A DNA stretch of 35,874 bases, taken from contig CAIOZS010000002.1 of assembly GCA_903862845.1 (NCBI GenBank), positions 1 through 35,874 of the forward strand, written 5' to 3'. Both the position numbers and the translations under genes were made by a program. The notes beneath the pieces are model-generated. The model was not told where the DNA came from. It ran no database searches and saw only the letters and a list, made by a program, of their open reading frames with translations. Shown one piece after another: positions 5,299 to 26,724 of this stretch. Position 1 is the first letter of the stretch; each line of letters opens with the position of its first letter. The stretch comes from an uncultured Thermoleophilia bacterium (lineage in GTDB: Bacteria; Actinomycetota; Thermoleophilia; UBA2241).

Positions 5299-5386
5299 GC
5301 GTCACGCTCCCGCGGTCGGTGATGTGGACAGAGTATGAACGCATCCCCGGACGGCAGCGCGAGCCGGCCGCCGCGAAGGCGAACCG

Positions 5387-11091: not shown

Positions 11092-13106
11092 GGCACGCCC
11101 TTGATGACCATCAGCGTGATGTCATCGAACTGGGGGGCGTCCCCGGCAAACTGCTGCACGCCCTCGAGGATCTCCGTCAGGATCTCGTGCGCGGGCAGTC
11201 GCACGCTCTTCCTGATGATCGCCTCCAGCCTGGCTTCGCCGAACATCTCTTGCTCGGCATTCATCGATTCCGTGACGCCGTCCGTGTACATGACGAGGCC
11301 GTCGCCAGGTCCGATGTCGACGGTCCGGGAAGAGTAGTCCCGGCCCTCGGCGGCGCCCAGAGCTATGCCCGTCGGCATGAGCCTCTCGAGGGCTCCGTCC
11401 GCGCCGCGGAACACGAGCGGTGGGTTGTGACCCGCATTCACGTAGGTCAGGGCGCGCGTCTTCTCGGAAAGCGCCCCGTAGAAGAGGGTCACGAACATCC
11501 CGGCCTTGGAATCCTGGGCGATGACGTTGTTCGCGTCGTGGATCGCGCGGGCCGGATCGCGGTGCCAGAGCGCGTTCACGCGGACGACGATCCGCGACAA
11601 GGCCATGAACAGCGCCGCCGGCACTCCCTTTCCCGAGACATCGGCGATGAGGATCCCAAGCGTGCCTTTCTCGAGCGGCACGACCTCGAACGGGATCACG
11701 TCGAAGAAATCGCCGCCCACCTCCATGGCCATCACGCTCCTCGCCGCGATATCGAAGCCGGTGATCTGCGGGACGACCTCGGGAAGAAAGCTCTGCTGGA
11801 TCTCCGCCGCGATCTGGAGCTCGGCATTTGAGCGCGCAAGATGCGCTTCCATCTCACGGCGCGCGGTGATATCGCGGATCGTCTCGATGGCCCCGGTGAT
11901 GTTTCCTTCGGGATCGTAGAGGGGGCTCGCCTTGGCCCAGAAGTACTTGCCCGCTTCCCCCAGCTTGGGGATGAACGTGTCCACAACGAGCGTATCGCCC
12001 TCCCGCTGCACGTGGGCGTACCGGCTCTCGATCTCCGCTTCGGGCATGAGGATCAGATCGGCCAGCATGAGTCTGCGCTCGTCGTAGAACGGCAGGGCAT
12101 ACTCGTAGTCTCCTTTGCCCACCATCTCTCGTGCAGATACGCCGGTCAGCTCCTCGATCGCCCGGTTCCACGTGACCACCACGCCGTCCCTGTCGATGGC
12201 GAAGGTGGCGTCCGGCAAGAAGCTGATGATCTCTGCGAGGCTCTGGCGCGAGCGGGAGATCTCGTGCTCCGCCCGCTTGCGGTCGGAGATGTCGCGGATC
12301 GTCTCGATAGCCCCAGATACCTCGCCCTGCGGGTCATACAGCGGGCTGGCTTTTGCCCAGAAGCACGCGCCCCCGTCGCGGAAGGTCGGGATGAAGACGT
12401 CCACCACGAGCGTGTCGCCCATCCTCTCGATGGTGTCGTAGCGCTTTTCGATCTCCGCTTCCGGCATGAACACGAGGTTGGCCAGCATCGGCTTGCGCTC
12501 GCCGTAGAACGGGAGCGCATACTCATAGTCACCCTTGCCCAGCATGGCTTCTGCGGCGACGCCGGTCATCTCCTCCAGCGCTCGGTTCCAGGCGATCACC
12601 CGCCCTTCGAGGTCGATCACGAAGGTGGCGTCCGGGAGAAAGTCGATGATCTCCGCCATCCGCTGGCTGGTCTTCGCCATCTCCTGCTCGGCGCGCTTGC
12701 GGCCCGTGATGTCCCTGATCGTCTCGATGGCCCCGATGACGGCGCCCTGCGCGTCGTACAGTGGACTGGCTTTCGCCCAGAAGTAGGCACCATCGGGGCG
12801 AAACGTGGGGATGAAGATGTCGACCACGAGCGTGTCGCCGACCCTCTCAACCGCGTCATACCGCTGCTCGATCTCCGCCTCCGGCATGAACACGAGGTTG
12901 GCCAGCATCGGCTTGCGCTCCCCATAGAACGGGAGGGCGTACTCGTAGTCACCCTTGCCCAGCATGGACGCGGCGGATACGCCGGTCACCTCCTCCATGG
13001 CCCGGTTCCAGGCGATCACTCTTCCGTCGAGATCGACCACGAACATGGCATCCGGCAGAAACGCGATGATCTCCCCGGCGAACGTCTCTCCCCGCGATCC
13101 CATCAT
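11088..13106 (-). CDS. Triple-PAS SpoIIE-type PP2C phosphatase
   Basis: 672 aa from ATG 13106 (GGGAG upstream). Three PAS domains occupy residues about 10-140, 150-280 and 290-420, in exact 140-residue register: FLPDA recurs at 16, 156 and 296, and KGDYEYALPFY at 51, 191 and 331. A short helical linker (ARSNAELQIAAEIQQSFLPE) leads into the SpoIIE domain, residues about 430-672. Its metal ligands are visible in GGDFFD, IADVSGKG, YTDGVTES and FDDITLMVI. Such proteins dephosphorylate anti-sigma-factor antagonists and so control stress sigma factors. There is no membrane segment, so it should be cytoplasmic. The GTGA overlap couples it to the binding lipoprotein downstream. No anti-sigma kinase gene lies nearby. 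Confidence 0.92.
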   Translation of the reverse strand: MMGSRGETFAGEIIAFLPDAMFVVDLDGRVIAWNRAMEEVTGVSAASMLGKGDYEYALPFYGERKPMLANLVFMPEAEIEQRYDAVERVGDTLVVDIFIPTFRPDGAYFWAKASPLYDAQGAVIGAIETIRDITGRKRAEQEMAKTSQRMAEIIDFLPDATFVIDLEGRVIAWNRALEEMTGVAAEAMLGKGDYEYALPFYGERKPMLANLVFMPEAEIEKRYDTIERMGDTLVVDVFIPTFRDGGACFWAKASPLYDPQGEVSGAIETIRDISDRKRAEHEISRSRQSLAEIISFLPDATFAIDRDGVVVTWNRAIEELTGVSAREMVGKGDYEYALPFYDERRLMLADLILMPEAEIESRYAHVQREGDTLVVDTFIPKLGEAGKYFWAKASPLYDPEGNITGAIETIRDITARREMEAHLARSNAELQIAAEIQQSFLPEVVPQITGFDIAARSVMAMEVGGDFFDVIPFEVVPLEKGTLGILIADVSGKGVPAALFMALSRIVVRVNALWHRDPARAIHDANNVIAQDSKAGMFVTLFYGALSEKTRALTYVNAGHNPPLVFRGADGALERLMPTGIALGAAEGRDYSSRTVDIGPGDGLVMYTDGVTESMNAEQEMFGEARLEAIIRKSVRLPAHEILTEILEGVQQFAGDAPQFDDITLMVIKGVP
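11817..13076 (-). repeat. Three 420-bp in-frame repeats encoding PAS domains
   Basis: Three direct repeats with a constant period of 420 bp make up the sensory half of the phosphatase gene. Units 1 and 2 are the most alike, with long blocks of identical protein such as YGERKPMLANLVFMPEAEIE; unit 3 is more diverged. The exact register without indels implies recent or conversion-maintained duplication. Confidence 0.85.
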
Positions 13107-13532
13107 GCTGCTCCCATCAGAGACGGATTCGGTCGGCGCCGGCGGACGCTGCGCGAAGGGACGGCTTCTGCGTGCTTGGACCGCGCACCGCGCTCAGAAG
13201 CTCCGGCCGCGCCTCCCCCGCGCGTCCTGCGGCGAGCCCGTGGTGCTCGCCTGCTTTCTCCCGCCTGTGAGCCCCCATAGACACGTTCCCTGCTTGCGGA
13301 CAGACTGTTTCTCCGACGCCCGACGACTTGCCTGCGGCCGACGGACCGCGGCCGCAGGCAGCCCCGGGAAGAGCGTAACCCCTCAGGCCGAAGGTTGACA
13401 GGTGAAAACGCTTCTCGAGGATCCCTGCCCTTCTGCGGTCGGCGCCGCTCGCGGGCCGGGAAGCCATCGTGGCCAGGCTGCCCCAGATAGTCCGCGCAGA
13501 GCCGGCCCTCGCGGAGCAGCCCACGCCGGAAG
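13107..13532. other. Intergenic region with one strong hairpin
   Basis: 426 bp with no credible gene on either strand. An 11-bp perfect stem (TGCCTGCGGCC at 13329-13339 and its complement at 13350-13360) with a 10-nt loop is the only obvious structure. It has no T-run on either side, so it is a weak candidate terminator for the HD gene and could equally be a leader structure of the phosphatase gene. No known riboswitch consensus was recognised. Confidence 0.45.
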
Positions 13533-14126
13533 CTACGTCCGCCCCTCCTCATCCACAGCCGCGGTCCACTTATCGGCAAAGTGGACGAGCATCTGCAATC
13601 TGCATTCGCGGTGGTGATAGTCGAGGTTGTTGACGCCGCCGGACACGGGGTAGATGCCGTCGTGGGCGACGATGGCCTGGGCCTCGTCCTCGGTCAGCTC
13701 GACGCGGTTGCTGATGAGGTAGAGGCTCCGCACGGCGAGGTTCATCGTCGTCGCCTCAGGGTTGACCTTGTAGGTCTTGCCGCGCTTCGTGACCTCCCAC
13801 TGCACGTCGTTGCGCAGGTAGTAGGGCTTGCCCGGATAGCCGACCTTGCCGAGGTCGTGGAAGAGCGCCGCGATGACCACCGACTCGTCGGGGATGTTCG
13901 GCGCCAGCAGACTCCGGATGCTGAGGGCGTTGCAGGTCACGCCGACGGAATGCAGCAGCAGGCCTCGCTCGATGTTGAGATGGAAGCGCGTGGAGGCGGG
14001 CGCGGTCAGCCAGCTCGTCTCGCGCTCGATGTAGTCCTTGAAGGCGAGGACCTGCGCCTTGCGCGGGCCGAGGAGCTCAAAGAGCGCGTGGTACCTGGCG
14101 TCCAGGTTGTCGAGGGTGAGCGTCAT
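13533..14126 (-). CDS. HD-domain hydrolase, second gene of a two-gene unit
   Basis: 197 aa. ATG 14126 is chosen because it overlaps the TGA of the upstream gene (TGATG). The HD motif is spread as LLLHSVGVTCNALSI (His), VIAALFHDLGKVG (His-Asp) and AIVAHDGIYP, matching metal-dependent phosphohydrolases of the HD superfamily. The segment between GKVGYPGKPYYLR and SRV..TEDEAQ is a beta-rich insertion. These enzymes act on nucleotides, cyclic nucleotides or nucleic acids; the substrate is not visible here. Strict coupling to a 626-aa protein with a possible nuclease motif suggests a joint role in nucleic-acid processing or defence. A truncated homologue of this gene lies at 28749-29172, without the partner. 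Confidence 0.7.
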   Translation of the reverse strand: MTLTLDNLDARYHALFELLGPRKAQVLAFKDYIERETSWLTAPASTRFHLNIERGLLLHSVGVTCNALSIRSLLAPNIPDESVVIAALFHDLGKVGYPGKPYYLRNDVQWEVTKRGKTYKVNPEATTMNLAVRSLYLISNRVELTEDEAQAIVAHDGIYPVSGGVNNLDYHHRECRLQMLVHFADKWTAAVDEEGRT

Positions 14127-16006
14127 CACAGAGTCTTGGCGTGCTCGAGGAGCCTGGCGACGTCCTGCCACTCCCGGTCGTCGTCGCCGAGCTCATCCAC
14201 TGCAGCGGGGATGAGGTAGGCGACGGCCGGCCCCTTCTTTTCGTACGGCCGGCCGGCGCCGTCCAGCCAGCGGGCATTGGGGCCTGCGTAGCCCGCGAGA
14301 GAAGCAACGGGGATCTCTGCGAAGAGCGTCGCGGGCAGGTCGTCGCCGCGGCGTTTCAGCACGAGCGCGATGCCGTCAGCCTGCGGATGGAGCTGGGCGA
14401 TGTTGGTCTTGCCGGCGCAGCTCAGATTGACGTACTGGGACTTGCGCCCGCACTCCTCCATGCCGCCGGTCTTGATGATCCGCTCGGCGAACGCAGCGCG
14501 CTCGTCGAAGACCTCCTCGACGGTGGCGCTGGGCTCCAGGGCTGCGCTCCAGCCGCTTCCCCCTTGCGGGGCTGCCGGCCTGGCGGAGGAGGACACCGCC
14601 TCCGGCCCGGCCTCGATGCCGAGCCTCGCCAGCCGTGCGATGAGCGCTGTCTGCACATCTGGATCGTTGGACGAGAGGTGATGCTTTCCGGCGAACGCGA
14701 ACCCGACGAAGATGACGACCAGCTTCTTGCCCTCCGGCAGCTCGAGCCCCTTGCAGGTTTCCAGGGCGCTCGCGATGGTCGGTGCCCCGCTCGTCCCTCT
14801 CGAGTCGTAGACCTCGATGGCCCATCCTTGCTTGAGGTCGTGGTGCATGAGCTCGCGATAGAGCTTGGACACGTCGCTGGTGCCGGGAGTCGCGTCGACG
14901 GCATGCGCCAGCATGTCCGGGTCGATGACCTTGTCGAGCGCCTTGTTCTTGCCGAGCTCGAAGGCGAACAGCGCCTGCAGCCTTTCGGCGCACCTGTCGT
15001 CGATGTCGTCGGGGGAGCTCGGCGGGAGAGTCAAGGCAAGGTCGAACCTCGCGCCCCTGGGAGTCTGGCCGATGCCGATGTACCGCGCGAGCGTGTAGTG
15101 CTCGGACTGCAGGAGCAGCGTGGAGAAGCCCGGCCGCGGATCGTCGATGCTGAGACGCGCACCCCCATGGGCATGGAGCCTGGCGTAGAGGTAGTCGCGG
15201 ATGCCGGTGTCGCCGTGAAAACCGAACGGGTGCGTGAGCAGCTTGGCGACCGTGTCTGCCACGGAGGCCATCGTGATCTGCTCGCAGAAGCGCTCGTAGT
15301 CCGTGGCCGGCGGCGCGGCGGGATGCTGCCCGTGGGTCTCCGCAGCCGACAGGTAGTCGAGGTCGTTGGTGACGCGGAGTGCCTCGAGCACCGCGGTGAA
15401 CCCGTCCGTGTAGTCCTCGCCCCACGAGCCGCCGGCGGTGCCATCGTGGAGGCAGCGCGCCATGTGCTTCGCGGCCTCGTCGACGGCGGCCCTGAGCTCC
15501 GGGCAGAAGTCTGGCCGGCGCTCAAGCAGCCAGGGAACCTTGCCCTGGGCCAGGATGCCGAGCGCGTCGATGGCGCCGACTGCGTCGTTGTAGCCATGCC
15601 CCTGCAGACTCCTGCCGGCGCAGAACAGCATGCCCGACTGCAGCGCCTCGCGGTAGCCGGGGATGGCGAGCGCGGTGAGCGGGTGGTCGCAGAGGCCGCG
15701 GGCCAGCGTCGCCGTGGCGATGTACGTGGGAGTGAAGATGTGCGCGACGCGCGTCTCTGCGTCCATGCCGTCGTCGCCGGGCGCAACCGCCCAGCTGCCC
15801 GGCATGGTCCTGCCCAGCGACCCACGCTGGCCTTCGACCAGCGAGCTCAGATAGCCGGCCAGATCGTCCAGCGAGTAGTCGGCGTCGTTGGGGACCGTGC
15901 CCGCATCCAGGGCGTCGAGAAGCTCCGTCATCGAGGCGATGATGCCCGGCTTCCCCGGCATCCCCCGATGGTCGCCCACGTCACTCTGCTGGAATCGCTT
16001 GATCAC
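14126..16006 (-). CDS. Unrecognised 626-aa protein with possible PD-(D/E)XK motif
   Basis: The start is GTG 16006 because AGGAGG lies eight bases upstream; longer frames lack a site. I do not recognise the family. Residues about 85-260 are helix-rich with many His/Asp (FTPTYIATATLARGLCDHPL, LCSWGED-type patches). A possible nuclease core lies in residues 310-430: ARFDLALTL (Asp322), FAFELGKNKALDKVID (Glu350, Lys353) and KKLVVIFVGFAFAGKHH, which resembles the D...ExxK order of PD-(D/E)XK enzymes with a long insert. The last 120 residues (NLSCAGKTNIAQLHP, GIALVLKRRGDDLPA) may be a separate recognition domain. The gene is translationally coupled to the HD hydrolase gene. A defence or repair role is inference only. 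Confidence 0.6.
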   Translation of the reverse strand: MIKRFQQSDVGDHRGMPGKPGIIASMTELLDALDAGTVPNDADYSLDDLAGYLSSLVEGQRGSLGRTMPGSWAVAPGDDGMDAETRVAHIFTPTYIATATLARGLCDHPLTALAIPGYREALQSGMLFCAGRSLQGHGYNDAVGAIDALGILAQGKVPWLLERRPDFCPELRAAVDEAAKHMARCLHDGTAGGSWGEDYTDGFTAVLEALRVTNDLDYLSAAETHGQHPAAPPATDYERFCEQITMASVADTVAKLLTHPFGFHGDTGIRDYLYARLHAHGGARLSIDDPRPGFSTLLLQSEHYTLARYIGIGQTPRGARFDLALTLPPSSPDDIDDRCAERLQALFAFELGKNKALDKVIDPDMLAHAVDATPGTSDVSKLYRELMHHDLKQGWAIEVYDSRGTSGAPTIASALETCKGLELPEGKKLVVIFVGFAFAGKHHLSSNDPDVQTALIARLARLGIEAGPEAVSSSARPAAPQGGSGWSAALEPSATVEEVFDERAAFAERIIKTGGMEECGRKSQYVNLSCAGKTNIAQLHPQADGIALVLKRRGDDLPATLFAEIPVASLAGYAGPNARWLDGAGRPYEKKGPAVAYLIPAAVDELGDDDREWQDVARLLEHAKTL

Positions 16007-16647
16007 GCTTGCCGCCTCCTGGCGCGATTGTCGGTGCCGCGAGCCCACGACCGAGCCGCGCGTGGCGGCGGTCGAGGAGCAACTCGCGGTCTTCGTATGC
16101 TCACAGTAGCAGGCGCCGCGGACGGAACTGCGGGCGCCGCAGCACCCGCAGCCGCGCAGCCGCCGGCCGGTGGATGCGGCGGATCTCGACCTCACGGCCG
16201 ACCGCCCGCGCGTGCTGGCCGCTCTCGTCCGCCCGCTCCACGCGGGCGGCCGCGAAGCCCCTGAGCTTCACGCCCCGCTCGCCGCCACGCGGCGGCATCC
16301 CCTCTATCGAAGGGGCACGTCCACGACAACGAACATCCTCCGGAACTTCCGTGCCCCTTGCCTTGACTTCTCGCTGCCCGGCCGCTCCAGGGCGGGGTGG
16401 TGCGCAAAGGGAAGACAAGGATTCCTTGACTTTCCGGTCGCGCGCGGCCGTCTGCAGGCTCGATCGCTGAGGGGGGAGACAAGGATCCGGCGGCATTCCT
16501 TGTCTTCCCTCGCAGCACTACCCCGCTGCGGCGGCCGCGGGTCGCGCTTGCCGCGAGGCAATCCGAGTGATGAACGGCGCTGCGATGGCGCCCTGAGCCT
16601 CCTCGTAGAGAATCAGCACATCGCCCGGCGTGGCAGTTAGGAGCAGC
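16007..16647. other. Divergent intergenic region with repeat and hairpin
   Basis: This 641-bp gap separates the minus-strand nuclease-like gene from the plus-strand FEN gene and must hold both promoters; neither is clear. It contains a 10-bp perfect stem (AAGGGGCACG at 16310-16319 and its complement at 16350-16359) and the 135-bp repeat at 16392-16526. Short frames on the minus strand are possible but have no ribosome-binding site or recognisable content. Confidence 0.5.
16392..16526 (+). repeat. 135-bp MITE-like repeat, copy B
   Basis: It is the same length and orientation as 3613-3747. The terminal inverted repeats are better preserved here: the left end GCGGGGTGGTGC...AGGGAAGACAAGGA matches the complement of the right end (TTCCTTGTCTTCCCT...GCACTACCCCGC) at about 28 of 34 positions. 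An internal direct copy, GGGGAGACAAGGATCC, is also present. It is non-coding. Confidence 0.78.
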
Positions 16648-17529
16648 ATGAAGGTCCATCTGGTGGACGGCACGTACGAGCTCTTTCGCAACTTCTTCGG
16701 CGCGCCTCCGAAGCAGAGCCCCGACGGTCGTGAGGTCGGTGCCACCGTCGGCCTGCTGCGGAGCCTCTTCATGCTCGTCTCGACGCCCGGCGTGACGCAC
16801 GTCGCCTGCGCCTTCGACCACGTCATCGAGTCCTTTCGCAACGACCTCTTCCCCGGCTACAAGACGAGCGCCGGCGTCGCGGCAGAACTGCTGGCTCAGT
16901 TTCCCCTCGCGGAACGAGCCGTCGCCGCGCTCGGTATCGTTGTCTGGCCGATGGTGGAACTCGAGGCCGACGATGCCCTGGCCACGGCCGCCTCCCGCTT
17001 CAAGGACGAGCCGGGCGTGGAGCAGGTCGTGATCTGTTCGCCCGACAAGGACCTCGCGCAGGCGGTCTCCGGCGTCGGCGTCGTGTGCTGGGATCGCCGC
17101 CGCGGCATCGTCCTCGACGAGGACGGCGTGCTCGAGAAGTTCGGCGTGCGGCCGCGCTCCATCCCGGATTGGCTGGCGCTCGTCGGGGACGCCGCCGACG
17201 GCCTCCCGGGGATCCCCGCCTGGGGAGCCAAGTCGGCCTCGGCGGTCCTGTCGCGCTACGCTCATCTCGAGGCTATTCCGGAGGATCCCGGCCGGCTCGG
17301 GCTTCCCCTCGGGCGCGCCTCCCGCCTCGTCGAGAGCCTCGCGGCTCACCGCGAGGAGGCTCTGCTCTACCGGCGCCTGGCGACTCTGCGCGATGACGCT
17401 CCGCTCGAGGAAGAGCTTGCCGCTCTTGAGTGGCGCGGTGCGAGCGCGGGGCTGGAGGACCTGTGCCGTGAACTGGGCGACGAGGGGCTGAAGAAGCGCG
17501 TCAGCGGGCGCCGCGGCGCTTCAGCCTGA
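16648..17529 (+). CDS. Stand-alone FEN/5'-3' exonuclease (H3TH) family protein
   Basis: 293 aa. ATG 16648 follows TTAGGAGCAGC, an excellent ribosome-binding site, so a GTG 18 bases earlier is less likely. Metal-binding and fold motifs appear in order: VHLVDGTYELFR (Asp), VACAFDHVIESFRNDLFPGYK, WPMVELEADDALAT (Glu-Ala-Asp-Asp), VICSPDKDLAQAV and LVGDAADGLPGIPAWGAKSA, the helix-three-turn-helix with G-D-x-x-D-x-x-P-G. This matches the 5' nuclease domain of DNA polymerase I and related free-standing exonucleases, which remove flaps or RNA primers. There is no polymerase domain, and the length is typical for free-standing actinobacterial homologues. It converges with the SNF2 gene, whose stop lies 23 bp downstream. 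Confidence 0.88.
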   Translation: MKVHLVDGTYELFRNFFGAPPKQSPDGREVGATVGLLRSLFMLVSTPGVTHVACAFDHVIESFRNDLFPGYKTSAGVAAELLAQFPLAERAVAALGIVVWPMVELEADDALATAASRFKDEPGVEQVVICSPDKDLAQAVSGVGVVCWDRRRGIVLDEDGVLEKFGVRPRSIPDWLALVGDAADGLPGIPAWGAKSASAVLSRYAHLEAIPEDPGRLGLPLGRASRLVESLAAHREEALLYRRLATLRDDAPLEEELAALEWRGASAGLEDLCRELGDEGLKKRVSGRRGASA

Positions 17530-17552: not shown

Positions 17553-19736
17553 TCAGCGTGAGCCGGGCGCCCAGCCCTCGTCGGGCCGCGCCCCAGACGT
17601 CCTCCCCAGCAGCTCCGCCAGCCGGCCACTGTCAACAAGCTGCACGCCTCGATGCTCGGCCAGCCGCGTGGCATCTGCCGAGAACCCGGCTGGGCAGATC
17701 AGCGCGAGCCGGCCACCCGGATCGTCCACGGGAACGACGCCGGCGATGGCTCTGACGACCTCCACCCCGAGCGGCGCGGGGTGGTTCTCGCAGCGGATGT
17801 ACAAGGTCGTCGCCACGCCCACCACGTCCTCCCGCCGCGCGATCACGTCGACGCCACCGTCACGGGATCCCTGGGTGAGCTCCGTCTTGTACCCGAGATC
17901 TCGAAACAGCCTCTGCACGAATCCCTCGAACTGGCGGGCGCTCATGTCCGCGTACTTGAGCGCACCGGCGAGCGGGCTTCGCGCCGCGGGTTTCTGGGGT
18001 GGTTGCAGCCCGAACAGGCCGAAGAGCTCCTGCGCAGAAAGGACGCGCTCGAGATCCATGCTCACTTGATCGATGACCGTGTCGAAGAGAAGCTGCTTGG
18101 CCTCGAGCAGGCCGGCGATTCTCTCTTCGATCGTGCCTGAGCACGTGTACGTGTACACGTCGACGGACGACGTCTGGCCCATGCGGTGGCTGCGGTCCTC
18201 AGCCTGCTTCTCGCTGGCCGGATTCCACCAGCGGTCGAAGTGCACCACGTAGGACGCCTCCTGCAGGTTGAGACCCTGACCCCCGGCCTTCAGCGACAGG
18301 ATCATGACGCCATGACGTGAGTCGGCCTTGAAGCGACCCACGGCGCCGTGGCGCTCCTCCTGGGACATCGCCCCCGTGTACGTCAGGGGGGCGTGCTGCA
18401 CCAGCCCGCGGGCGATCGCCGCGACGCCAAAAGACGCGTCCGTGAACTGCGAGAACACGAGCGCGCGGTGATCCTCGGCGCGCAGCACCTCCAGGCGCTC
18501 CCGCAGATCGGCGAGCTTGGCAGACTCCCCCGTCGCGGGGCAGAAGTTGCAGATCTGCTTGAGCCTGGTGATGAGGCTGAGGACATGGGTGATGCTCACC
18601 GTCTCACCCCGCGATCGCAGCTCCACGACGCCCTGCTGCTCGGCCATGTCGTAGGCCTTGCGCTGAGCGACGGTCAGATCGAGCATCACGCTGTGGAGGC
18701 GTTTGGGGGGCAGCTCCGTGAGCACGTCCGACTTTCGCCGCCGGAGCTGCAGCTCCCGGTGCCGCTCGAGCAGAAGCCCATCGACGGCCAGCGGCGCGAC
18801 CGAATCCCCGGCCTCATTGGGCTGCAGGAGCTCCATGATCGAGGCGAGATCGTCGATGGAGTTCTCGAGCGGGGTCCCGGTGAGTGCCCACGACCGTGAT
18901 CGCGGAAGCGCCTTGCAGGCCGCACTTACAGAGGTCGCGCGATTCTTGATCTTCTGCGCCTCGTCGAGGATCGCGACCCCCCACGTTCTGCGGCGCGGGC
19001 CGCAGTCGCGGTCGTGCGTGAGGTCTGAGCGCAGCGACTCGTAGGTGGTCACGAAGATGTGCGCCGGGTAGGCCCACGCCATGGCGCGCTGCTGGGCAGT
19101 ACCCCTGATGGTGCTCACGCGCAGCTCCGGCGCCCACTTCTTGATCTCGCCACGCCACTGATACACGAGGCTCGCCGGTGCGACGATGAGGGCGGACTCG
19201 ACGGCCCCCTCATGGAACAGGATGCGCAGCGCCGCGATAGCCTGGACCGTCTTTCCGAGGCCCATGTCGTCGGCGAGAAGCACCTCGGGCCTGGAGACGA
19301 GCACGCGGACCCCGTCGAGCTGAAATGGCAAAAGCTCGCCGGGCCAATCCAGGACCGAGGCCCCGGAGGGAAACAGCAGCTCCACGGGTGGCGCGAGAAG
19401 AAGACGCAGGCGCTCGCGCAGCGAAGGCCCGTGAGCGACGGCCGCGGGCAGGCGGATGCCCGCCATGACGCCGGGTCCCACGGGGCCCGCGGCGCGGACA
19501 CCGGATGAAGACCGCGGCTCGAGGGAGTCGCCGAGCCGCAGGGCGCAGGGCGGCGACGCCACGAGGCGCACAGCCACGCGCCGACAGGCGCCGCCACCGA
19601 GCGCCGAGACGTCCGTCGCCTGGACCGGCCGGGCGTCGAGCCCGAGCGCGCTCCGCGCGGCGGCGGCGGGGCGCGGAGCCGGCAGCCGCAGGCGCCGCGG
19701 CGACGCCGGCGCGGCCTTCCTACTGAACAGCCCCAA
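17553..19736 (-). CDS. SNF2-type helicase with C-terminal Mrr-like domain
   Basis: 727 aa from TTG 19736, overlapping the preceding gene by 17 bp. After a basic, Pro/Ala-rich N-terminus of about 120 residues, the two RecA lobes follow: LADDMGLGKTVQA (motif I, about 154-166), LDEAQKIKN (motif II, about 258), ALTGTPLENS (motif III, about 288), a TGAMSQEERHGAVGRFK block, LSLKAGGQGLNLQEAS and EDRSHRMGQ (motif VI). The last 125 residues resemble Mrr_cat: MSARQFEGFVQRLFRDLGY and SRDGGVDVIARREDVVG, then YIRCENHPAPLGVEVVR where the usual Q-x-K is R-C-E. The ATPase should translocate on double-stranded DNA. The nuclease may be inactive or altered. It is the last gene of a five-gene coupled operon with BrxD-like ATPases. 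Confidence 0.88.
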   Translation of the reverse strand: MGLFSRKAAPASPRRLRLPAPRPAAAARSALGLDARPVQATDVSALGGGACRRVAVRLVASPPCALRLGDSLEPRSSSGVRAAGPVGPGVMAGIRLPAAVAHGPSLRERLRLLLAPPVELLFPSGASVLDWPGELLPFQLDGVRVLVSRPEVLLADDMGLGKTVQAIAALRILFHEGAVESALIVAPASLVYQWRGEIKKWAPELRVSTIRGTAQQRAMAWAYPAHIFVTTYESLRSDLTHDRDCGPRRRTWGVAILDEAQKIKNRATSVSAACKALPRSRSWALTGTPLENSIDDLASIMELLQPNEAGDSVAPLAVDGLLLERHRELQLRRRKSDVLTELPPKRLHSVMLDLTVAQRKAYDMAEQQGVVELRSRGETVSITHVLSLITRLKQICNFCPATGESAKLADLRERLEVLRAEDHRALVFSQFTDASFGVAAIARGLVQHAPLTYTGAMSQEERHGAVGRFKADSRHGVMILSLKAGGQGLNLQEASYVVHFDRWWNPASEKQAEDRSHRMGQTSSVDVYTYTCSGTIEERIAGLLEAKQLLFDTVIDQVSMDLERVLSAQELFGLFGLQPPQKPAARSPLAGALKYADMSARQFEGFVQRLFRDLGYKTELTQGSRDGGVDVIARREDVVGVATTLYIRCENHPAPLGVEVVRAIAGVVPVDDPGGRLALICPAGFSADATRLAEHRGVQLVDSGRLAELLGRTSGARPDEGWAPGSR

Positions 19737-20286
19737 GCCCGCTCACGTCCTCGCCGCGAGCCTCGCGGAGCCCGGCTGCGGCCCTCTCGAAGGGCTCCGC
19801 CAGCAGACCGGCCGCCCGCAGCCGGTCGACCAAGGTGCGTTCGGGCGAGCCGCCCGCGGGGCGCCCCGACGACCAGAGCAGGTGCAGCTCTGCGGCGTCC
19901 ACGTCCTCGCCCTGCTCATCGGCGCCGCTTGCGAGCGGGGCCGTCTGAGCGGCGACCCTGCAGGTGGCGACGGGCGTCTCGATCTCTCCGGCGAAAAAGC
20001 CCGGATCGACCTCATCCGCCATGGCGAAGACGACCAGCGGACGTGAGGTGGCGGCGCTGAAGAGCGCGGTGGTGAGCTCTCGCGCCGCGCGCCGCCTGAG
20101 ATCTTGTGGTCTCCAGAGGACTGTGCGCGGCGTCTCGACCCTGGAGTAGACGAACTCAACGGGCTCGCCTTTGAGGTTCATCACGAAGAGCGCGCCGTCG
20201 TAGCCCCCGGCCGCGTCGCGAATCACCCTGAGGAATCCTGCCACGTGGGCGCCGACGCCGTCGGTGGCACGGAAGGGGATGCTCAA
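19720..20286 (-). CDS. Unrecognised 188-aa protein of the BrxD-like operon
   Basis: The start is probably TTG 20286, overlapping the TGA of the ATPase gene (TTGA); a longer frame upstream runs inside that gene and has shadow-like composition. No family is recognised. The first 110 residues look like a compact alpha/beta domain: FRATDGVGAHVAGFLRVIRD, YDGALFVMNLKGEPVEFVYS, VLWRPQDLRRRAAREL and TSRPLVVFAMADEVDPGFF. The C-terminal part is acidic then helical (GADEQGEDVDAAELHLLW, LVDRLRAAGLLAEPFERAA). There is no signal or membrane segment. Its fixed position between a P-loop ATPase and a SNF2 helicase suggests an adaptor or effector subunit. A GTG a few codons later is an alternative start. Confidence 0.7.
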   Translation of the reverse strand: MSIPFRATDGVGAHVAGFLRVIRDAAGGYDGALFVMNLKGEPVEFVYSRVETPRTVLWRPQDLRRRAARELTTALFSAATSRPLVVFAMADEVDPGFFAGEIETPVATCRVAAQTAPLASGADEQGEDVDAAELHLLWSSGRPAGGSPERTLVDRLRAAGLLAEPFERAAAGLREARGEDVSGLGAVQ

Positions 20287-21548
20287 GGCGCGGCCGCCTG
20301 GTCGCCCGGCTCGTCGTCTTCGACGGGCTTCTCGAGCAGGGCGTCTTCGGCGTAGTCGTCGGCGATGTGCTGTACCTCGATCTCGGGCTCGTAGGCCGGC
20401 GCCACGCGATTGAGGTCCCAGGTCGTGATCCACGAGCGTACATACTCACGCATCTGCCGGCCCGTCTTGAGCGAGGCGTCGAGCGTCGCGGGCACGCAGT
20501 CATACGCTGTGGCGTAGATGACCGCGAGCGTCGCGAGCACCTCCTCGAGGTCGTCCTGCGACGGCTCGCGAAGCCGCAAGAGCTCCTGGTCGACGGCGTC
20601 CATGGCGAGCTCGGCGAGACTGGCCGTGAGGACGCTCTCGGGATCGCCGCGCAGACGGAAGCGGAAGCCGATCTGGTTGCGGTCGTCCTTCTCGTCGATG
20701 ACCGCCGAAGCGTAGTCGGGCGTGACTGCGCCGACGGCGAGAAGACCGGGGACGGCGTGATCATCGGCAAGCCCCAGCAGCCGGGCAAGCTCCGCATAGG
20801 CTCTGCCTCGCTGGAGCACCGTGTACCGGCCCATCAGCTCGAGCTCGTCAAGGAGGATCACCCAGCCGTCGTAGCCCGCGGCGCACAGCAGTCTGGCCAT
20901 GAACGTGAAGCGCTGACGCGCGAGGTCCTTGATGGCGATCTTCTCGAGGGCGAAGCGCTTGGCGTCGCCGGTCTGGCGAAGGCCCTCACGCAGGCGGCCC
21001 ACCTGCATGGCGCCGCCCTCCCAGAACCCGATCAGCTCGTCCTGCATGTCGGTATCCGCCCCCGCCTGCTCGAAGAGCCACGTCGTGGCCGCGAACCGGG
21101 AGTTCAGATCAGAGCCCTGCAACCAGAGGCTGAGCGCGGCGAACCGCGGGCTCTGGGTGCTCAGGCGGCTGACGGCGATGTCGCGCAAGGCGTCGCCGAC
21201 GACGTTCTCGCAGACCAGGCTGTCGACCGCGGCGCGAAACACCTTGAGCGGGTCGAACAGCTGCGTCTCTTTTGAGATGACGACCTTGCTGACCGCGAAG
21301 TTCTCCTGGCGCGCCTTGTGACTGAGGTACTCGAGCACGTGGGACTTGCCGCCGCCGAAGTCGGCGGCGACCAGCATCCCGCGCGGCCGCCGGCCGCCGG
21401 AAACGCTCCCGCGCAGCTCCGCGAGGCGGGCGTCAAAGACGCCGAGGACTTCGTGAGCCGAGCAGCCCAGGGCGCTGACGGCGTCCCGGTTGGGGACGCC
21501 GGCGCGCAGCGCCTCGATGGCTCGGCGGGCAGAGACCCGGACGTTCAT
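20283..21548 (-). CDS. BrxD-like (PF10923/DUF2791) P-loop ATPase
   Basis: 421 aa from ATG 21548, overlapping the TGA of the preceding gene (ATGA). The sequence opens SARRAIEALRAGVPNRDAVS, the hallmark N-terminus of the BrxC/BrxD-type ATPase family. Walker A is AADFGGGKSHVLEYL (about 61-75), Walker B is WVILLDELELMGRY (about 229-242, Asp234-Glu235), and GLLAVGAVTPDYASAV sits where the sensor strand is expected. A FRFRLRGDPESVL segment and an acidic C-terminus follow. In BREX type 2 loci BrxD accompanies helicase and PglZ genes; none of PglX, PglZ or PglW is seen here. The gene sits in a different five-gene context with a degenerate paralogue and a SNF2 helicase. An ATP-dependent DNA-sensing role is inferred from the family. 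Confidence 0.85.
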   Translation of the reverse strand: MNVRVSARRAIEALRAGVPNRDAVSALGCSAHEVLGVFDARLAELRGSVSGGRRPRGMLVAADFGGGKSHVLEYLSHKARQENFAVSKVVISKETQLFDPLKVFRAAVDSLVCENVVGDALRDIAVSRLSTQSPRFAALSLWLQGSDLNSRFAATTWLFEQAGADTDMQDELIGFWEGGAMQVGRLREGLRQTGDAKRFALEKIAIKDLARQRFTFMARLLCAAGYDGWVILLDELELMGRYTVLQRGRAYAELARLLGLADDHAVPGLLAVGAVTPDYASAVIDEKDDRNQIGFRFRLRGDPESVLTASLAELAMDAVDQELLRLREPSQDDLEEVLATLAVIYATAYDCVPATLDASLKTGRQMREYVRSWITTWDLNRVAPAYEPEIEVQHIADDYAEDALLEKPVEDDEPGDQAAAP

Positions 21549-22516
21549 GCCGCACCCCCCTGCGCCGCCGCGATGCGCACCATGGGCGCGTACGGGTCTG
21601 GATAGCTGCGGTCGCGGACGTCGTCCCAGATGCGGTTTCGGAGCGCCCTGTACTTCTGCAGGCTGCGATTGCTGGAGTCGTCGAGCAGCGCCTCGGGAGC
21701 AGACACCACGACCAGAAGGCCCTCCATCTCGTCGGTCGCGTCGATGAACTGGCGGAGCACCTCGTAGGCATCCCACAGGGCCGCCGGAGTGTAGTAGATC
21801 TCGCCTTCGGGAACGTCGCGCCGATGCGTCGCCGCGAGCGCGCGCAGATCGAGGTTGACGACGAGGCCGGACCCGCCGGTGTAGCGGATCCAGCGCGCCG
21901 CCGAGACGAGCATGGCCCTCGCGTTGTGACGCCCGATGCGCTGGTAGATCTGCAAGGGCTTCACCGCGCTGATGAGCCGCAGGTCGCCCCTCAGCCAATC
22001 GAGAATGGACGTGCAGCTCTGCCGCCCGCTGGCGTCGTCCTCCAGCTGCGCCAGGCAGAGCTGAGCCATGGCCACGCGGAAATCCTTGGCCAGCGTGTAG
22101 TTCCTGATGACGCTCACGGTGAGGCGCTTCTGCAGCTCTCGCCGCACGATGTTGGGATCGACCTCGTTGCGGGCGGCGAGCGTCGCTATAGTCAGGGGTC
22201 CGTCGGCCACCAGGTAAGGTTCGGAGGCGAGCGCCGCGTTCACGCGGTCGGCCAGTGCGCTCCAGTCGATCTGCGCGGCAACCGCGAAGAAGACCTGCTG
22301 GATCATGCTGATCCTGGTCTGCGCGGCCGCGACGCGGACGCCGGTGAAGCCGAGACGCTCGCTGCTGTGCTTGAGATCTCGCTCCAGGCGGTCGAGCGCC
22401 GCGGCGTCGGCGCCTACGGCGAACTTGACCGCGGCGCCTCCGTCGCGGACGAAGCTCGAGAGGTAGTCGTCGGCGAGAAAGGCGGCGTAGTCTGCGGCGT
22501 TGATCTGCGGAGTCAC
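21545..22516 (-). CDS. BrxD-like paralogue with degenerate P-loop
   Basis: 323 aa from GTG 22516, with GAGGT eight bases upstream and four bases after the preceding stop. The N-terminal YLSSFVRDGGAAVKFAVGAD has the layout of the strand leading into a P-loop in BrxD-type ATPases, but the G-x-x-x-x-G-K-S/T is replaced by GADAAALDR (about 35-43). Downstream, TRISMIQQVFFAVAAQIDW, then GSGLVVNLDLRALAAT (about 216-230) at the Walker B position lacking the Asp-Glu pair, and EGLLVVVSAPEALLDD parallel the active paralogue encoded next. I infer a catalytically dead ATPase that pairs with it. No other family is suggested. The overlap ATGA with the next gene supports a fixed stoichiometry. Confidence 0.65.
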   Translation of the reverse strand: MTPQINAADYAAFLADDYLSSFVRDGGAAVKFAVGADAAALDRLERDLKHSSERLGFTGVRVAAAQTRISMIQQVFFAVAAQIDWSALADRVNAALASEPYLVADGPLTIATLAARNEVDPNIVRRELQKRLTVSVIRNYTLAKDFRVAMAQLCLAQLEDDASGRQSCTSILDWLRGDLRLISAVKPLQIYQRIGRHNARAMLVSAARWIRYTGGSGLVVNLDLRALAATHRRDVPEGEIYYTPAALWDAYEVLRQFIDATDEMEGLLVVVSAPEALLDDSSNRSLQKYRALRNRIWDDVRDRSYPDPYAPMVRIAAAQGGAA

Positions 22517-22520
22517 GGCG

Positions 22521-23315
22521 TTAGACCTCGAAGCCTATGGAGGTGTAGTCCACGCGGCGCCCATCTTCTCCCACGACGGTGATCATGCCGGACGCCGCCT
22601 TGGTGCCGGTGCTCCGCCCAAAGTGGACGCGAGCGCCTTTGCGGGTCACGCGCTCGCCGCTCTGCTCCAGGAGGTAGAGGTCGCGGCCGAGCTCGGGCTT
22701 TGAGTACTCCCTGCTGCTCCCCGGGGCGATGGTGAGCGCCGCGTATACATGGTCGACGCGCACGTCAGGTCCGGGCCGGCGACCGCCGGCGCGCAGATGC
22801 CTGGCGTGGTCCCAGGCGACGTAGAGCGACTCGAGAAACTGGGTCGCCTTGAATCGCGGCGGCCGCGCCTGGACCGCTTTGAGGTGTGTCACGAGGGCGG
22901 ACGGCCGCACGCTGCGATAGGGCTTGCGATCGATGAAGACGCAGCGCCGCGCCGCGTCCACCTTGACGAGGCTCGGGTAGCAGACGATGGTGCCCTCTTC
23001 GACGCTCACCTGGAGACCACTCGCGGCAGCGTCGGCAACGAGCTCGGCGGTGAACCCGCCATCGGCGAAATAGGCGGTCTCCTCCTCTTCGGAGAGCCCC
23101 CACGACTGCGCGGCGCTGAGGGTCTCCGCGCGGGCGGCCTGCAGGTGGCCCTCGAGCTCCGCCAGGGCCTTGGCAAGCGCACTCAGGTCGCCGACGCGAG
23201 CTGCCTTCTGGCCGGCCTTGAGGCCGCTGGTCAGCCTGGCCACCGATTTCAATGCCGTTTCGATGCGGCGCTGCGTCTCTTCGCAGGCTCCTTCAAGAAC
23301 TGCCCCGTCTGTCAC
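22521..23315 (-). CDS. Unrecognised 264-aa first protein of the BrxD-like operon
   Basis: GTG 23315 is chosen because GGAGGT lies seven bases upstream. The first 100 residues are helical and coiled-coil-like (ETQRRIETALKSVARLTS, LSALAKALAELEGHLQAARA). The rest is a mixed domain with conserved-looking blocks: VCYPSLVKVDAARRCVFIDR, LESLYVAWDHARHLR, VDHVYAALTIAPGSSREYSK and LGRDLYLLEQSGE, ending in beta-rich TGTKAASGMITVVGED. I know no named domain for this; the layout (coiled coil plus a possible DNA- or partner-binding module) would suit a sensor or scaffold. It is the first gene of the five-gene operon, so its upstream region (23316-23513) must hold the promoter, next to a long stem-loop. Confidence 0.7.
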   Translation of the reverse strand: MTDGAVLEGACEETQRRIETALKSVARLTSGLKAGQKAARVGDLSALAKALAELEGHLQAARAETLSAAQSWGLSEEEETAYFADGGFTAELVADAAASGLQVSVEEGTIVCYPSLVKVDAARRCVFIDRKPYRSVRPSALVTHLKAVQARPPRFKATQFLESLYVAWDHARHLRAGGRRPGPDVRVDHVYAALTIAPGSSREYSKPELGRDLYLLEQSGERVTRKGARVHFGRSTGTKAASGMITVVGEDGRRVDYTSIGFEV

Positions 23316-23427
23316 CTGTGCTACCTCCAGTGCGTCTGCTTGCCAGTAAACATCAGCGGCTACGTCGCGGAGCGCATCTGCGCACGGCGAACAAGGCTCC
23401 GAGCAGCCTCGGCCAGACTCAAGCCAA

Positions 23428-23507: not shown

Positions 23508-23594
23508 GTCGCCATGTTACCTGACGCAGGTGACGGAAGAGTCCCGCGGAAGGCGCCGTCAGGCGGAGCCGATCGTCCACGACTCCGCCTGACG

Positions 23595-23888
23595 ATGGCA
23601 TCCCCCGTGCCGGCGCGCCTGCATCGTGAGCGGCTCGCCGGATATCGCGCGAGGGGCCACACCGTGAAATGCGGGGCGGGTGGACACGTTCTGCCTGAGC
23701 TGGTGGGCAGCGACGCTGCCCGCGAGCTGCTCAAGCCCACACGCGGGCGGCCACGTTCCACGAACCCCAAGGATCACGTGAAGATCCGCCTGGATGCGGA
23801 CGTGCTGGCCGCGTTCAAGCGCACCGGCAGTGGCTGTCAGACGCGGCTGAACAGTGCTCTGCGTAACTGGTTGAGTACGCACGCCTGA
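23595..23888 (+). pseudogene. Chimeric remnant: TOTE helicase tail joined to BrnA tail
   Basis: From ATG 23595 the frame reads PVPARLHRERLAGYRARGHT, matching the last residues of the TOTE helicase encoded just downstream (VLARMHQKRLAGYRAMGYV). It then switches, at about 23690, to VLPELVGSDAARELLKP, RGRPRSTNPKDHVKIRLDAD and WLSTHA. That part is about three-quarters identical to the C-terminal two thirds of the BrnA antitoxin at 31222-31512. DNA similarity with that locus continues some 60 bp past the stop. The product would have an RHH domain but neither a complete BrnA nor a helicase. It is best read as a recombination scar that happens to remain open, and it might still bind BrnA operators. 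Confidence 0.7.
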
Positions 23889-24225: not shown

Positions 24226-26724
24226 ATGGTCAACGCGGATGGCGAGACGGACGACCTCACGGCTCTGCGCGCCGAATGCGTGCGGCTGCGCGCGGAAAAC
24301 GCCCGCCTCAGGTCGCAGCTTGGGCTGACGAAGGCTGAGCCCTTGGCTCTGCCGCGCCAGGCCCCGCCCGCGACGAGGGAGCATGCGGCGAACCGCCGTT
24401 CCCCTGCGGCGATGGCGCTCCCTGTGGCTGCTCCCAGCGCGCTCGAGACCGATGGCCAAGTGGCCTCCGCCTCCCCCGTCGCTGCCAAGCTGGCGCTTTT
24501 CCGCACCCTCTTCCGCGGCCGCGAGGACGTCTTCGCGGTGCGCTGGCAGAACAAGGCGGGTCGGTCGGGCTACGCCCCCGCGTGCGCGCACGAATGGGAT
24601 CGCTCCGTGTGCTGCAAGCCCCAGGTCAAGTGCGCCGACTGCCCCAACCGGGCGCTGCTCCCCCTCACCGACGAGATGATCCGCGACCACCTCACGGGCC
24701 GGCACACCGTCGGCATCTACCCGCTGCTGCCCGACGAGACGTGCCGCTTTCTGGCGCTCGACTTCGACAAGGCCGAGTGGCGGCATGACGTCTCGTCGTT
24801 CGCGGGAGTGTGCGCGCAGTCCGATGTCCCGGCGTACGTCGAGGTGTCGCGGTCCGGGGACGGCGCGCACGTGTGGGTCTTCTTCGCCGGGGCGATCGAC
24901 GCTGCGCAAGCGCGACGGCTCGGCTCGGCGCTTCTGACCCGAACGACGGCACAGCGCCATGAGGTGGGCCTCGACTCATACGACCGCCTCTTCCCCGGCC
25001 AGGACACGCTCCCCAAAGGCGGCTTCGGCAACCTCATCGCCTTGCCCCTGCAGCGCCAGCCGCGGGACGAGGGCAGAAGCGTGTTCATCGACGCCGACTT
25101 TCAGCCGGCGCTCGATCAGTGGCATCTGCTCTCCCGCGTGACGCGGATGACGGCCACCGACGTGGCACGAGCTCTCGAGAAGGTGCTCGACGGAGCCGAC
25201 GCCCTCGGCGAGCGCATCGCCCTGGACGACGGCGCGGAGAAGCCATGGACCCTTCCCCCGTCCGGGCGACGGCCAGAGCCTCGCATCGCGGGGCCCTTCC
25301 CCGACGCGCTCGAGGTGGTGTCAGGCAACCTCGTGTACGTGAGCAAGAACGGCCTTCCGCAGGGCCTGCAAGACAGGCTCGTCCGCCTGGCCGCATTCGA
25401 GAACCCGGAGTTCCACAGGGCTCAGGCGATGCGACTTCCAACGTTCGCGAAGCCGCGGCTCATCAGCTGCGCTGAGGAGCTTCCCGGCTACATCGCCCTG
25501 CCGCGCGGCTGCTTTGACGCGGCGCTCCAGCTGCTCGAGGACCACGGCATCGAGCCGCGGCTCCGTGACGAGAGGACGGATGGCCAGCCGCTCGACGCGA
25601 CTTTCCACGGCGAGCTCACGCCGCAGCAGCTCGAAGCCGCCGAGGCGATCCTGGCGCACGACAACGGCGTCCTGTGCGCCGCCACCGCGTTCGGCAAGAC
25701 GGTCGTCGGTGCCTGGCTCATCGCCGCCCGGCAGGTCAACACTCTGGTGCTGGTGCATCGCCGCCAGCTGATGGACCAATGGTGCGAGCGGCTCGCAGCC
25801 TTCCTCGACCTGCCGCCTGCCGCGATCGGTGTGATCGGCGGCGGCCGCACGCGGCCGACAGGAGCGATCGACGTCGCCGTCATCCAGTCCCTCAACAAGA
25901 AGGGCGTGGTCGCTGACCTCGTGGCCGACTATGGGCAGGTGATCGTCGACGAGTGCCACCACCTCTCGGCCTTCAGCTTCGAACAGGTGCTGAGGCAGGT
26001 GCGGGCGAAGTACGTCGTGGGCCTCACGGCGACGCCCGTGCGCCGGGACGGGCACCAGCCGATCATCACCATGCAGTGCGGCCCGATCCGCTACCGCACC
26101 GACGCCAGGAGCCAAGCCGCAGCGCGCCCGTTCGAGCACAGGGTCGTTGTGAGAGACACTGCCTTCTCGATGCCCGCGGCGGACATCGAGCCGGGCATCC
26201 AGGCGATCTACTCCGCGCTCGCCGCGGACTCCGCGCGCAACGCCCTCATCGTCGCCGACGTGCTCGCCGTCGCCGCCGCGGGGCGCTCCCCGCTCGTGCT
26301 CACCGAGCGTACCGAGCATCGCGACAGCCTCGCCGCAGCGCTGGACGAGTCGGCGGCGACAGTGTTCATCATGTCGGGCGGGATGGGCGCCAAGAGGCGG
26401 CGGGCGATCGCGGAGGCGCTGGCAGCGACGCCACCCGAGGCCCCGCGAGTGATCGTCGCCACCGGCCGCTGCGTCGGCGAGGGGTTCGACGACGCGCGCC
26501 TGGACACGCTCTTCCTGGCCATGCCGGTCGCCTGGCGAGGGACGCTGCAGCAGTACGCCGGCCGACTGCACCGGGTGCACGCGGGCAAAGCGGACGTGAT
26601 CATCTACGACTACGTGGACGGCGGTGTCCCCGTGCTGGCGCGCATGCATCAGAAGCGGCTTGCCGGGTATCGCGCGATGGGCTACGTAGTGGCAAGTGGA
26701 GCCTCGCCGTCCGATTCGACGTAG
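24226..26724 (+). CDS. TOTE-type primase-helicase (AEP domain plus SF2 helicase)
   Basis: 832 aa. Residues 10-35 form a short coiled coil (LRAECVRLRAENARLRSQL). Residues about 88-330 match the archaeo-eukaryotic primase domain described from TOTE conflict systems: DVFAVRWQNKAGRSGYAPAC, a Cys cluster (CCKPQVKCADCPN), GIYPLLPDETCRFLALDFDK with the catalytic Asp pair (about 179/181), and VEVSRSGDGAHVWVFF with the His (about 215). Residues about 470-820 are a superfamily 2 helicase: CAATAFGKTVVGA, LVHRRQLMDQW, IVDECHHLSAFSF, GLTATPVRRDGH and QYAGRLHRVHAGK. TOTE proteins are proposed DNA-based conflict effectors. No nuclease gene follows directly; the PIN-ImmA pair converges. A 65-bp copy of its 3' end lies upstream at about 23603. 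Confidence 0.88.
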   Translation: MVNADGETDDLTALRAECVRLRAENARLRSQLGLTKAEPLALPRQAPPATREHAANRRSPAAMALPVAAPSALETDGQVASASPVAAKLALFRTLFRGREDVFAVRWQNKAGRSGYAPACAHEWDRSVCCKPQVKCADCPNRALLPLTDEMIRDHLTGRHTVGIYPLLPDETCRFLALDFDKAEWRHDVSSFAGVCAQSDVPAYVEVSRSGDGAHVWVFFAGAIDAAQARRLGSALLTRTTAQRHEVGLDSYDRLFPGQDTLPKGGFGNLIALPLQRQPRDEGRSVFIDADFQPALDQWHLLSRVTRMTATDVARALEKVLDGADALGERIALDDGAEKPWTLPPSGRRPEPRIAGPFPDALEVVSGNLVYVSKNGLPQGLQDRLVRLAAFENPEFHRAQAMRLPTFAKPRLISCAEELPGYIALPRGCFDAALQLLEDHGIEPRLRDERTDGQPLDATFHGELTPQQLEAAEAILAHDNGVLCAATAFGKTVVGAWLIAARQVNTLVLVHRRQLMDQWCERLAAFLDLPPAAIGVIGGGRTRPTGAIDVAVIQSLNKKGVVADLVADYGQVIVDECHHLSAFSFEQVLRQVRAKYVVGLTATPVRRDGHQPIITMQCGPIRYRTDARSQAAARPFEHRVVVRDTAFSMPAADIEPGIQAIYSALAADSARNALIVADVLAVAAAGRSPLVLTERTEHRDSLAAALDESAATVFIMSGGMGAKRRRAIAEALAATPPEAPRVIVATGRCVGEGFDDARLDTLFLAMPVAWRGTLQQYAGRLHRVHAGKADVIIYDYVDGGVPVLARMHQKRLAGYRAMGYVVASGASPSDST

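Follow-up and report, generated by a model that had tools for sequence, protein, structure and literature searches.

The window analysed here is the whole 35,874-nucleotide stretch of contig CAIOZS010000002.1 (GenBank assembly GCA_903862845.1), from an uncultured Thermoleophilia bacterium of the Actinomycetota lineage UBA2241. It carries five minus-strand genes, here called A to E, which form a real, widespread and conserved operon. Gene C encodes a BrxD-like AAA+ ATPase, B a predicted pseudo-ATPase bearing the same family signature, and E an SNF2 translocase with a C-terminal Mrr-like domain. A and D belong to families for which Pfam has no model. The operon is apparently unnamed and matches no named defence system among those checked; no paper describing or naming it was found in the open-access literature, subscription journals lying mostly outside that search. 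We tentatively favour a reading in which an ATPase/pseudo-ATPase complex loads the SNF2 motor onto DNA, probably against invaders, and would give it somewhat less than an even chance.

The operon spans positions 17553-23315 of the window (Table 1). A and B are separated by 4 bp, B and C overlap by ATGA, C and D by TTGA, and D and E by 17 bp; the coordinates and junctions bear out the strand and spacing reported in a first-pass annotation made from the DNA letters. All five genes show the local coding pattern, with G+C content high at codon position 3 and low at position 2. The source genome is a draft of 4.38 Mb in 352 contigs. Profile searches proposed in that annotation found PF10923, the BrxC/BrxD family, above its Pfam gathering cut-off of 22.2 bits in both B (42.9 bits) and C (64.2 bits), which agrees with the BrxD-type layout it had assigned to these two central proteins. 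In E they found SNF2-rel_dom (2.9e-49), Helicase_C and Mrr_cat (4.1e-20). A and D had no Pfam family above cut-off and no match of any kind in PADLOC. The PADLOC matches of B and C were weak (SngB for both, a partial BrxD for C), and those of E were partial, to helicase parts of ZorD, DpdE and DrmD. Every NCBIfam match of the five genes lay under its cut-off.

Homologues of these families recur in the same order in other genomes, so one outcome that the first-pass annotation had named as fatal to its proposal, a lack of co-occurrence elsewhere, did not arise. When 296 genomes of the phylum were searched with gene B, clear matches were obtained in its own genome and in genomes G078 and G042, and marginal ones, with no adjacent A, C or E, in G143 and G214. 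Within the class, B was present in seven of 299 sampled genomes, its own included. The order A-B-C-D-E is found in six of the seven (the window and loci L022, L023, L024, L025 and L026); E runs off the contig in L022, A does so in L025, and E is split over two frames in L023. The seventh, L011 of G078, reads A-B-C-E and lacks D. Outside the class, genome contigs were scanned with an alignment of C. At least 232 relatives were detected, of which the best 80 were kept, giving 78 loci after removal of two duplicates, some of them sharing one genome. They come from Chloroflexota, Nitrospirota, Acidobacteriota, Gemmatimonadota, Armatimonadota, Actinomycetota, Pseudomonadota, Bacillota and others. 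In 65 of the 78 loci, across many phyla, A, B and C follow one another in this order. Among the 13 exceptions, 12 have B with A not found and one (L085) lacks both; these are mostly Nitrospirota copies, some of them truncated by a contig end. Most Nitrospirota loci encode a B-C fusion protein, often as two tandem copies after A.

What lies behind C differs between lineages. Counted over the 64 loci with at least 2.5 kb beyond C, a helicase is encoded close 3' of C in 27. It is of the E type in 19, of which 13 count as having D and six have no separate D gene (two of these 19, L094 and L100, encode a fused D and E), a larger SNF2 protein in two (L090 and L103, scoring only ~310 bits against E) and another superfamily 2 (SF2) helicase, with PbeA as its best PADLOC match, in six. 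D occurs without E in a single locus (L030). A-B-C is thus the core of the operon, with helicase neighbours that vary by lineage.

Two arrangements deserve separate mention. The PbeA-matching SF2 protein, to which we give the presumptive label 'RecQ-like', replaces the SNF2 protein after A-B-C in Acidimicrobiia and some other loci (L086, 11288-12868; L102, 8260-9843; also L059, L061, L070 and L080). At L012 (10544-13881), A-B-C stand alone, followed by an apparent aldehyde dehydrogenase gene, with no D or E.

C carries the Walker A motif of an active P-loop ATPase. FGxGKS is present in all 95 C homologues and the strict pattern GxxxxGK[ST] in 85; the other ten read FGxGKSH with the first Gly replaced, and the C of the window, with Ala at that position, is among them. 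In B, by contrast with the 'P-loop pair' proposed in the first-pass annotation, Walker A was found in none of 90 homologues. Two active P-loops are therefore ruled out, and B is predicted to be a pseudo-ATPase. We read its N-terminal GGAAVK, which is still kept, as the probable lead into the lost P-loop. B and C appear to be kin because both match PF10923, hhalign of their small alignments giving a weak result (probability 17%). A profile of C retrieved nothing useful from PDB sequences. The model of A has a mean predicted local distance difference test score (pLDDT) of 94.1 and consists of an N-terminal helical hairpin, an alpha/beta region and, at the C-terminus, a helix-helix-strand part that we read from the secondary structure as winged-helix-like. 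Its 64 homologues, scanned singly against Pfam, gave chance-level matches only. Foldseek found nothing at E 0.001 in the PDB or among viral models, and the VIA match covers the hairpin only. A may be a DNA-binding sensor or adaptor.

The model of D (mean pLDDT 87.9) resembles endonuclease V (EndoV), UvrC and PIWI structures in structure searches. Foldseek aligned it to EndoV with a best E value of 1.4e-5 and a probability of 1.00, yet with a template modelling (TM) score of 0.52 and a root-mean-square deviation (rmsd) of 7.7. VIA gave Z 11.6 to 2qh9 (148 aligned residues, rmsd 3.4) and Z 11.0 to EndoV 3hd0 (151 aligned, rmsd 3.4). As modelled, the RNase H fold of the EndoV clade extends across most of D. 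At the sequence level, 23 D homologues scanned singly against Pfam gave only chance-level matches, a D profile found nothing useful among PDB sequences, and no member of the EndoV family was found in the genome of the window. In EndoV and RNase H enzymes the first catalytic Asp sits on strand 1. D does not have this Asp of an active endonuclease V: in strand 1, mapped by strand and not by residue-level superposition, Asp is absent from residues 16-22 in 23 of 23 homologues, and 21 of the 23 have Arg or Lys at residue 20. D is thus predicted to be an inactivated RNase H-fold protein, the presumed loss of catalysis resting on strand 1.

The presence of D is coupled to the architecture of E. In all 16 loci where D is a separate gene and E can be read, helicase motif I of E falls at residue 156-190; in all five D-less loci, where C and E overlap or are at most ~40 bp apart, it falls at residue 22-46. 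D and the N-terminal extension of E go together in 21 of 21 readable loci; L023, L048 and L075 were unreadable and were left out of the motif I count. Three Alphaproteobacteria encode an E with a fused D-like region, and there motif I is at 235-242. On a tree of C (a quick tree, with phylum labels taken from record titles), the D trait changes five times, and the E extension changes in the same direction each time. The simple reading is that D may bind the extension of E.

The C-terminal end of E is more variable. The Mrr nuclease motif consists of GVD followed by QxK. In the window, GVDVI is present and the QxK position reads RCEN, so this Mrr domain is predicted to be inactive. A single sequencing error is an unlikely cause, since two motif residues differ. 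QCKN is found at this position in ten full-length Mrr ends (L024, L025, L026, L033, L037, L040, L050, L052, L054 and L057) and is retained in the partial Mrr end of L023. The whole domain is missing from 13 of 26 E homologues with a readable end (L035, which runs off its contig, was set aside), and all 13 Mrr-bearing E proteins come from D-containing loci. The Mrr-less homologues and the RCEN of the window rule out Mrr as an essential effector, and they do not support an effector role for the Mrr-like end that the first-pass annotation had placed on the translocase.

These observations also bear on the alternative that the operon is a degenerate Zorya- or restriction-like nuclease system, in which the SNF2-Mrr protein would be the effector, the remaining genes would encode targeting subunits and the window copy would be decaying. 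E shares the SNF2 and Mrr layout of ZorD and matches ZorD models over the SNF2 core (1e-76) and, in another model, over the Mrr part (3.4e-73); the RCEN of the window, set beside the QCKN of the ten full-length ends and of L023, would fit decay. However, Mrr-less E proteins are common and still stand behind A-B-C, the five reading frames of the window copy all remain open and keep the usual codon-position pattern, and PADLOC found no match to ZorA, ZorB or ZorC among them. Unlike ZorD, E lacks most of the N-terminal part of the ZorD models, and it scores 172.4 bits on the ZorD equivalog, against a cut-off of 1500. We regard this alternative as improbable.

Among named systems, the closest likenesses are to modules that combine an ATPase with a helicase. 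In BREX, BrxD has been proposed to load its partner helicase BrxHI (PMC12839542), and in type 2 BREX, as in our operon, a BrxD-type ATPase stands beside an SF2 helicase (PMC12839542). The operon differs in that its helicase is SNF2 and not Ski2-like, and in having the additional pseudo-ATPase B. C scores 63.2 bits on the BREX_BrxD equivalog NF033438, the cut-off of which is 350. As the first-pass annotation had observed, the BREX core is missing: PADLOC and Pfam found no PglX, PglZ, PglW, BrxC/PglY or BrxHI among the five genes, nor Pfam among the ten neighbours scanned. An inactive STAND/ORC-Cdc6 relative beside an active ATPase is also known from the BrxB/inactive STAND (iSTAND) pseudo-ATPases of BREX, where the inactive STAND partners have been linked to sensing (PMC12839542). 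B differs from these in retaining the PF10923 signature, and no PglZ occurs among the genes tested.

The anti-phage system Shango combines a helicase with an ATPase and a TerB-like protein (PMC10250203). It resembles the operon as a small set comprising a helper protein, a BrxD-like ATPase and a helicase (PMC10250203), and SngB weakly matches both B and C. We found 11 SngB loci in 149 genomes and examined nine, four with strong and five with weak SngB. Their SngB proteins score 30-90 bits on the B and C models, and the nine loci held no homologue of A, D or E and no second B-like gene. A Shango system with another helicase is therefore ruled out. Nor were SngA or SngC recognised in the operon: A and D have no PADLOC match, and the 25 E matches listed, out of 48, do not include SngC.

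For D, the nearest comparison beyond the fold it shares with the EndoV/PIWI clade is TALON, in which inactivated RNase H domains are fused to SF2 helicases (PMC12458937); ARMADA, BRIGADE and TALON are centred on YprA, and RNase H domains have also been reported in TOTE systems (PMC12458937). In TALON (PMC12458937) and in the operon alike, an RNase H domain lacking the customary catalytic residue is tied to an SF2 helicase. D differs in being a separate small protein beside an SNF2 translocase, with no sequence family or PDB sequence match. By analogy, the operon may work like the 'ATPase plus helicase' modules of BrxD-BrxHI and Shango. Its new parts are the dead ATPase twin, the EndoV/PIWI-clade subunit tied to a helicase extension, and family A, for which no relative was found.

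Starting from the observed gene order, domain content, motif loss and co-occurrence of D with the E extension, we infer complex formation, loading, nucleic-acid recognition and defence. A-B-C would form a DNA-binding AAA+ complex of the BrxD (ORC/Cdc6-like) kind, in which C would hydrolyse ATP, B would be a catalytically dead twin and A an adaptor or sensor. This complex would load or license a partner helicase on DNA, E being the partner in the window. D would sit on the N-terminal extension of E and hold it, probably recognising an unusual nucleic acid such as a hybrid, a flap or a modified base. E would then strip or move along the target DNA. An intact Mrr could also cut, and the E of the window should act by translocation alone. 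The most likely role would be interference with incoming DNA. In a bolder form, which we consider rather doubtful, A-B-C would be a separate, widespread AAA+/pseudo-AAA+ helicase-loading immune machine that plugs into SNF2, larger SNF2 and other SF2 helicases; in the five-gene form, the inactivated D would recognise foreign nucleic acid and steer a nuclease-independent blocking by the SNF2 protein. The operon bears on the question of what BrxD-type ATPases do beside helicases in type 2 BREX and Shango, for which it is a testable, portable unit. Loading, sensing and cutting are separable in it because natural variants differ in helicase partner, Mrr and D. Families A and D lack a Pfam model in spite of their presence in more than one phylum, and D would be an inactive EndoV/PIWI-clade sensor of a new kind.

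Several observations weigh against this loading-and-interference proposal. For the joint change of D and the extension, the tree offers three pairs on starred branches, too few for the sign test (p 0.25). Acidic positions of D are conserved (E92 in all 23 homologues, E41 and E44 in 22), and six of the 23 have Glu at residue 22, so another, unusual active site is possible. No such helicase or D lies close behind C in 36 of the 64 loci, 17 of them Nitrospirota; eight genomes with such loci hold only other SNF2 proteins, with a best match of 173-303 bits, compared with the 878 and 933 bits of true E proteins. Many flanking genes resemble housekeeping genes by eye. The C tree mostly follows phyla, with 17 changes as against 47 with shuffled labels. 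The C of the window, as a single query, was not found in 50,697 phage records; one C protein (that of L037) had no match in 72,556 plasmid records, and one C alignment had none in viral contigs. At the limits used, these collections thus gave no phage- or plasmid-borne copy. Finally, in six Nitrospirota genomes (G568, G607, G620, G626, G630 and G645) the copies are separated by ~32-34 kb, and the genes in the one interval read look ordinary. The fixed spacing and ordinary interval genes make this locus unlike a mobile defence island, and in Nitrospirota, where 21 of 77 genomes of one order carry it, it looks stably chromosomal.

Much of this would suit chromosome maintenance or repair, in which the complex would clear stalled proteins, R-loops or damage from the cell's own DNA, D would sense lesions like its EndoV relatives and E would be a RapA-like or remodeller-like translocase. 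The EndoV/UvrC-like fold of D, the dispensable Mrr, the many ordinary-looking flank genes and steady spacing in Nitrospirota, and the 5'-3' exonuclease gene adjoining the operon in the window all point that way. A repair function is harder to reconcile with a distribution that is patchy even within the genus, with no B found in any of the six further genomes listed for the genus; all six are drafts, and absences from drafts may be assembly gaps, a caution that counts against the interference proposal too. It also sits poorly with a starred clade on the C tree that mixes four phyla on short branches (L030, L034, L035 and L037), and with defence-type neighbours at several loci. We judge repair to be a serious alternative with a clear minority chance.

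A regulatory or signalling module, with helicase-driven control of transcription, seems very improbable to us. It draws on genes resembling histidine kinases and response regulators by eye, which follow fused B-C in several Nitrospirota loci, and on the 272 bits that E scores on a 'pilus expression-regulating Snf2' model. That NCBIfam match is far under the cut-off of 1100; the kinase- and regulator-like genes were seen in Nitrospirota loci only, with no systematic count, and by eye no such gene was conspicuous next to the five-gene loci of the class. In Nitrospirota loci L117-L119, A and two tandem fused B-C genes precede a histidine-kinase-like and a response-regulator-like gene, and a third B-C gene lies ~32-34 kb off, at a near-constant distance in six genomes.

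Returning to interference with invaders, the neighbourhood evidence is mixed, and we put a defence role at slightly better than even. The TOTE and toxin-type neighbours noted in the first-pass annotation are indeed there: a TOTE gene and toxin-antitoxin-like genes lie near the operon, and the Pfam scan of ten neighbours also found two HTH-IrrE genes. Elsewhere, a full-length TOTE relative (12872-15286) adjoins A-B-C in Actinoplanes (L092), and a shorter one lies near L057. Beside L011 lie genes for a type IV-like restriction helicase and for Fic; L051 has an AbiE-type pair and L026 an AbiEii-type gene, while a YgjP-like gene stands directly 5' of A at L037 and a Cas9-like gene ~7 kb from the operon at L101. 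For a count, the 116 open reading frames (ORFs; at least 130 aa, at most three per side) nearest to 24 loci were compared in PADLOC at 1e-10 with 111 control ORFs from 20 regions of eight genomes, three of which were also flank sources. The flanks gave 98 PADLOC families and the controls, which were not phylum-matched, 26; one protein may match several families, so that these are not protein counts. Among the first 25 families listed, the control ORFs also gave defence-type matches (type IIG restriction-methylase and Cas12f models). Scanned singly, four of 20 flank ORFs matched (at L011, L057, L101 and L023) and 16 did not.

Table 1. Features of the operon and its surroundings in the window
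Feature	Position	Strand	Description	Basis
Gene A	22521-23315	(-)	264 aa; family without a Pfam model	
Gene B	21545-22516	(-)	323 aa; BrxC/BrxD-signature protein, predicted pseudo-ATPase	PF10923 and Walker A count
Gene C	20283-21548	(-)	421 aa; BrxD-like AAA+ ATPase	Pfam, PADLOC, NCBIfam, motif count
Gene D	19720-20286	(-)	188 aa; TTG start; predicted RNase H-like fold of endonuclease V / PIWI clade, no strand-1 Asp	
Gene E	17553-19736	(-)	727 aa; SNF2 translocase with C-terminal Mrr-like domain	
Shine-Dalgarno-like motif	23324-23328	(-)	GGAGG, 5' of gene A	Direct reading
Gene B, eroded P-loop site	22403-22441	(-)	GGAAVKFAVGADA	Aligned with the P-loop of C by eye
Gene C, Walker A region	21339-21368	(-)	AADFGGGKSH	Motif count in homologues
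Gene C, Walker B region	20835-20864	(-)	WVILLDELEL	
Gene E, N-terminal extension	19332-19736	(-)	Only where D occurs	
Gene E, SNF2 core	18177-19322	(-)	SNF2-rel_dom and Helicase_C	Pfam
Gene E, Mrr_cat domain	17607-17948	(-)	GVDVI retained	Pfam and motif reading
Gene E, QxK position	17784-17795	(-)	RCEN for QCKN	Codons cgc tgc gag aac
TOTE conflict primase-helicase	24226-26724	Opposite to operon	~0.9 kb upstream of the start of A	
BrnA antitoxin	23514-23888		Near operon	
5'-3' exonuclease gene	16630-17529		Adjoins operon	

Further genes were seen around the operon. In the window, a 621-aa protein without a Pfam family (14126-15991) is encoded beside a weakly HD-like gene (13533-14171, slightly under the Pfam cut-off), and a triple-PAS SpoIIE-type phosphatase gene lies at 11088-13106. 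An apparent HsdR end, recognised by eye and without a Pfam match, precedes the YgjP-like gene of L037. Near the E gene of L062, a 507-aa protein without a Pfam match (4566-6089) is perhaps the prokaryotic Argonaute (pAgo) match of the flank set, an assignment made by length and sequence. At L011 of G078, an extra gene without a Pfam family (10431-11114) overlaps the start of A, and we take part of its product to be reminiscent of DUF3320.

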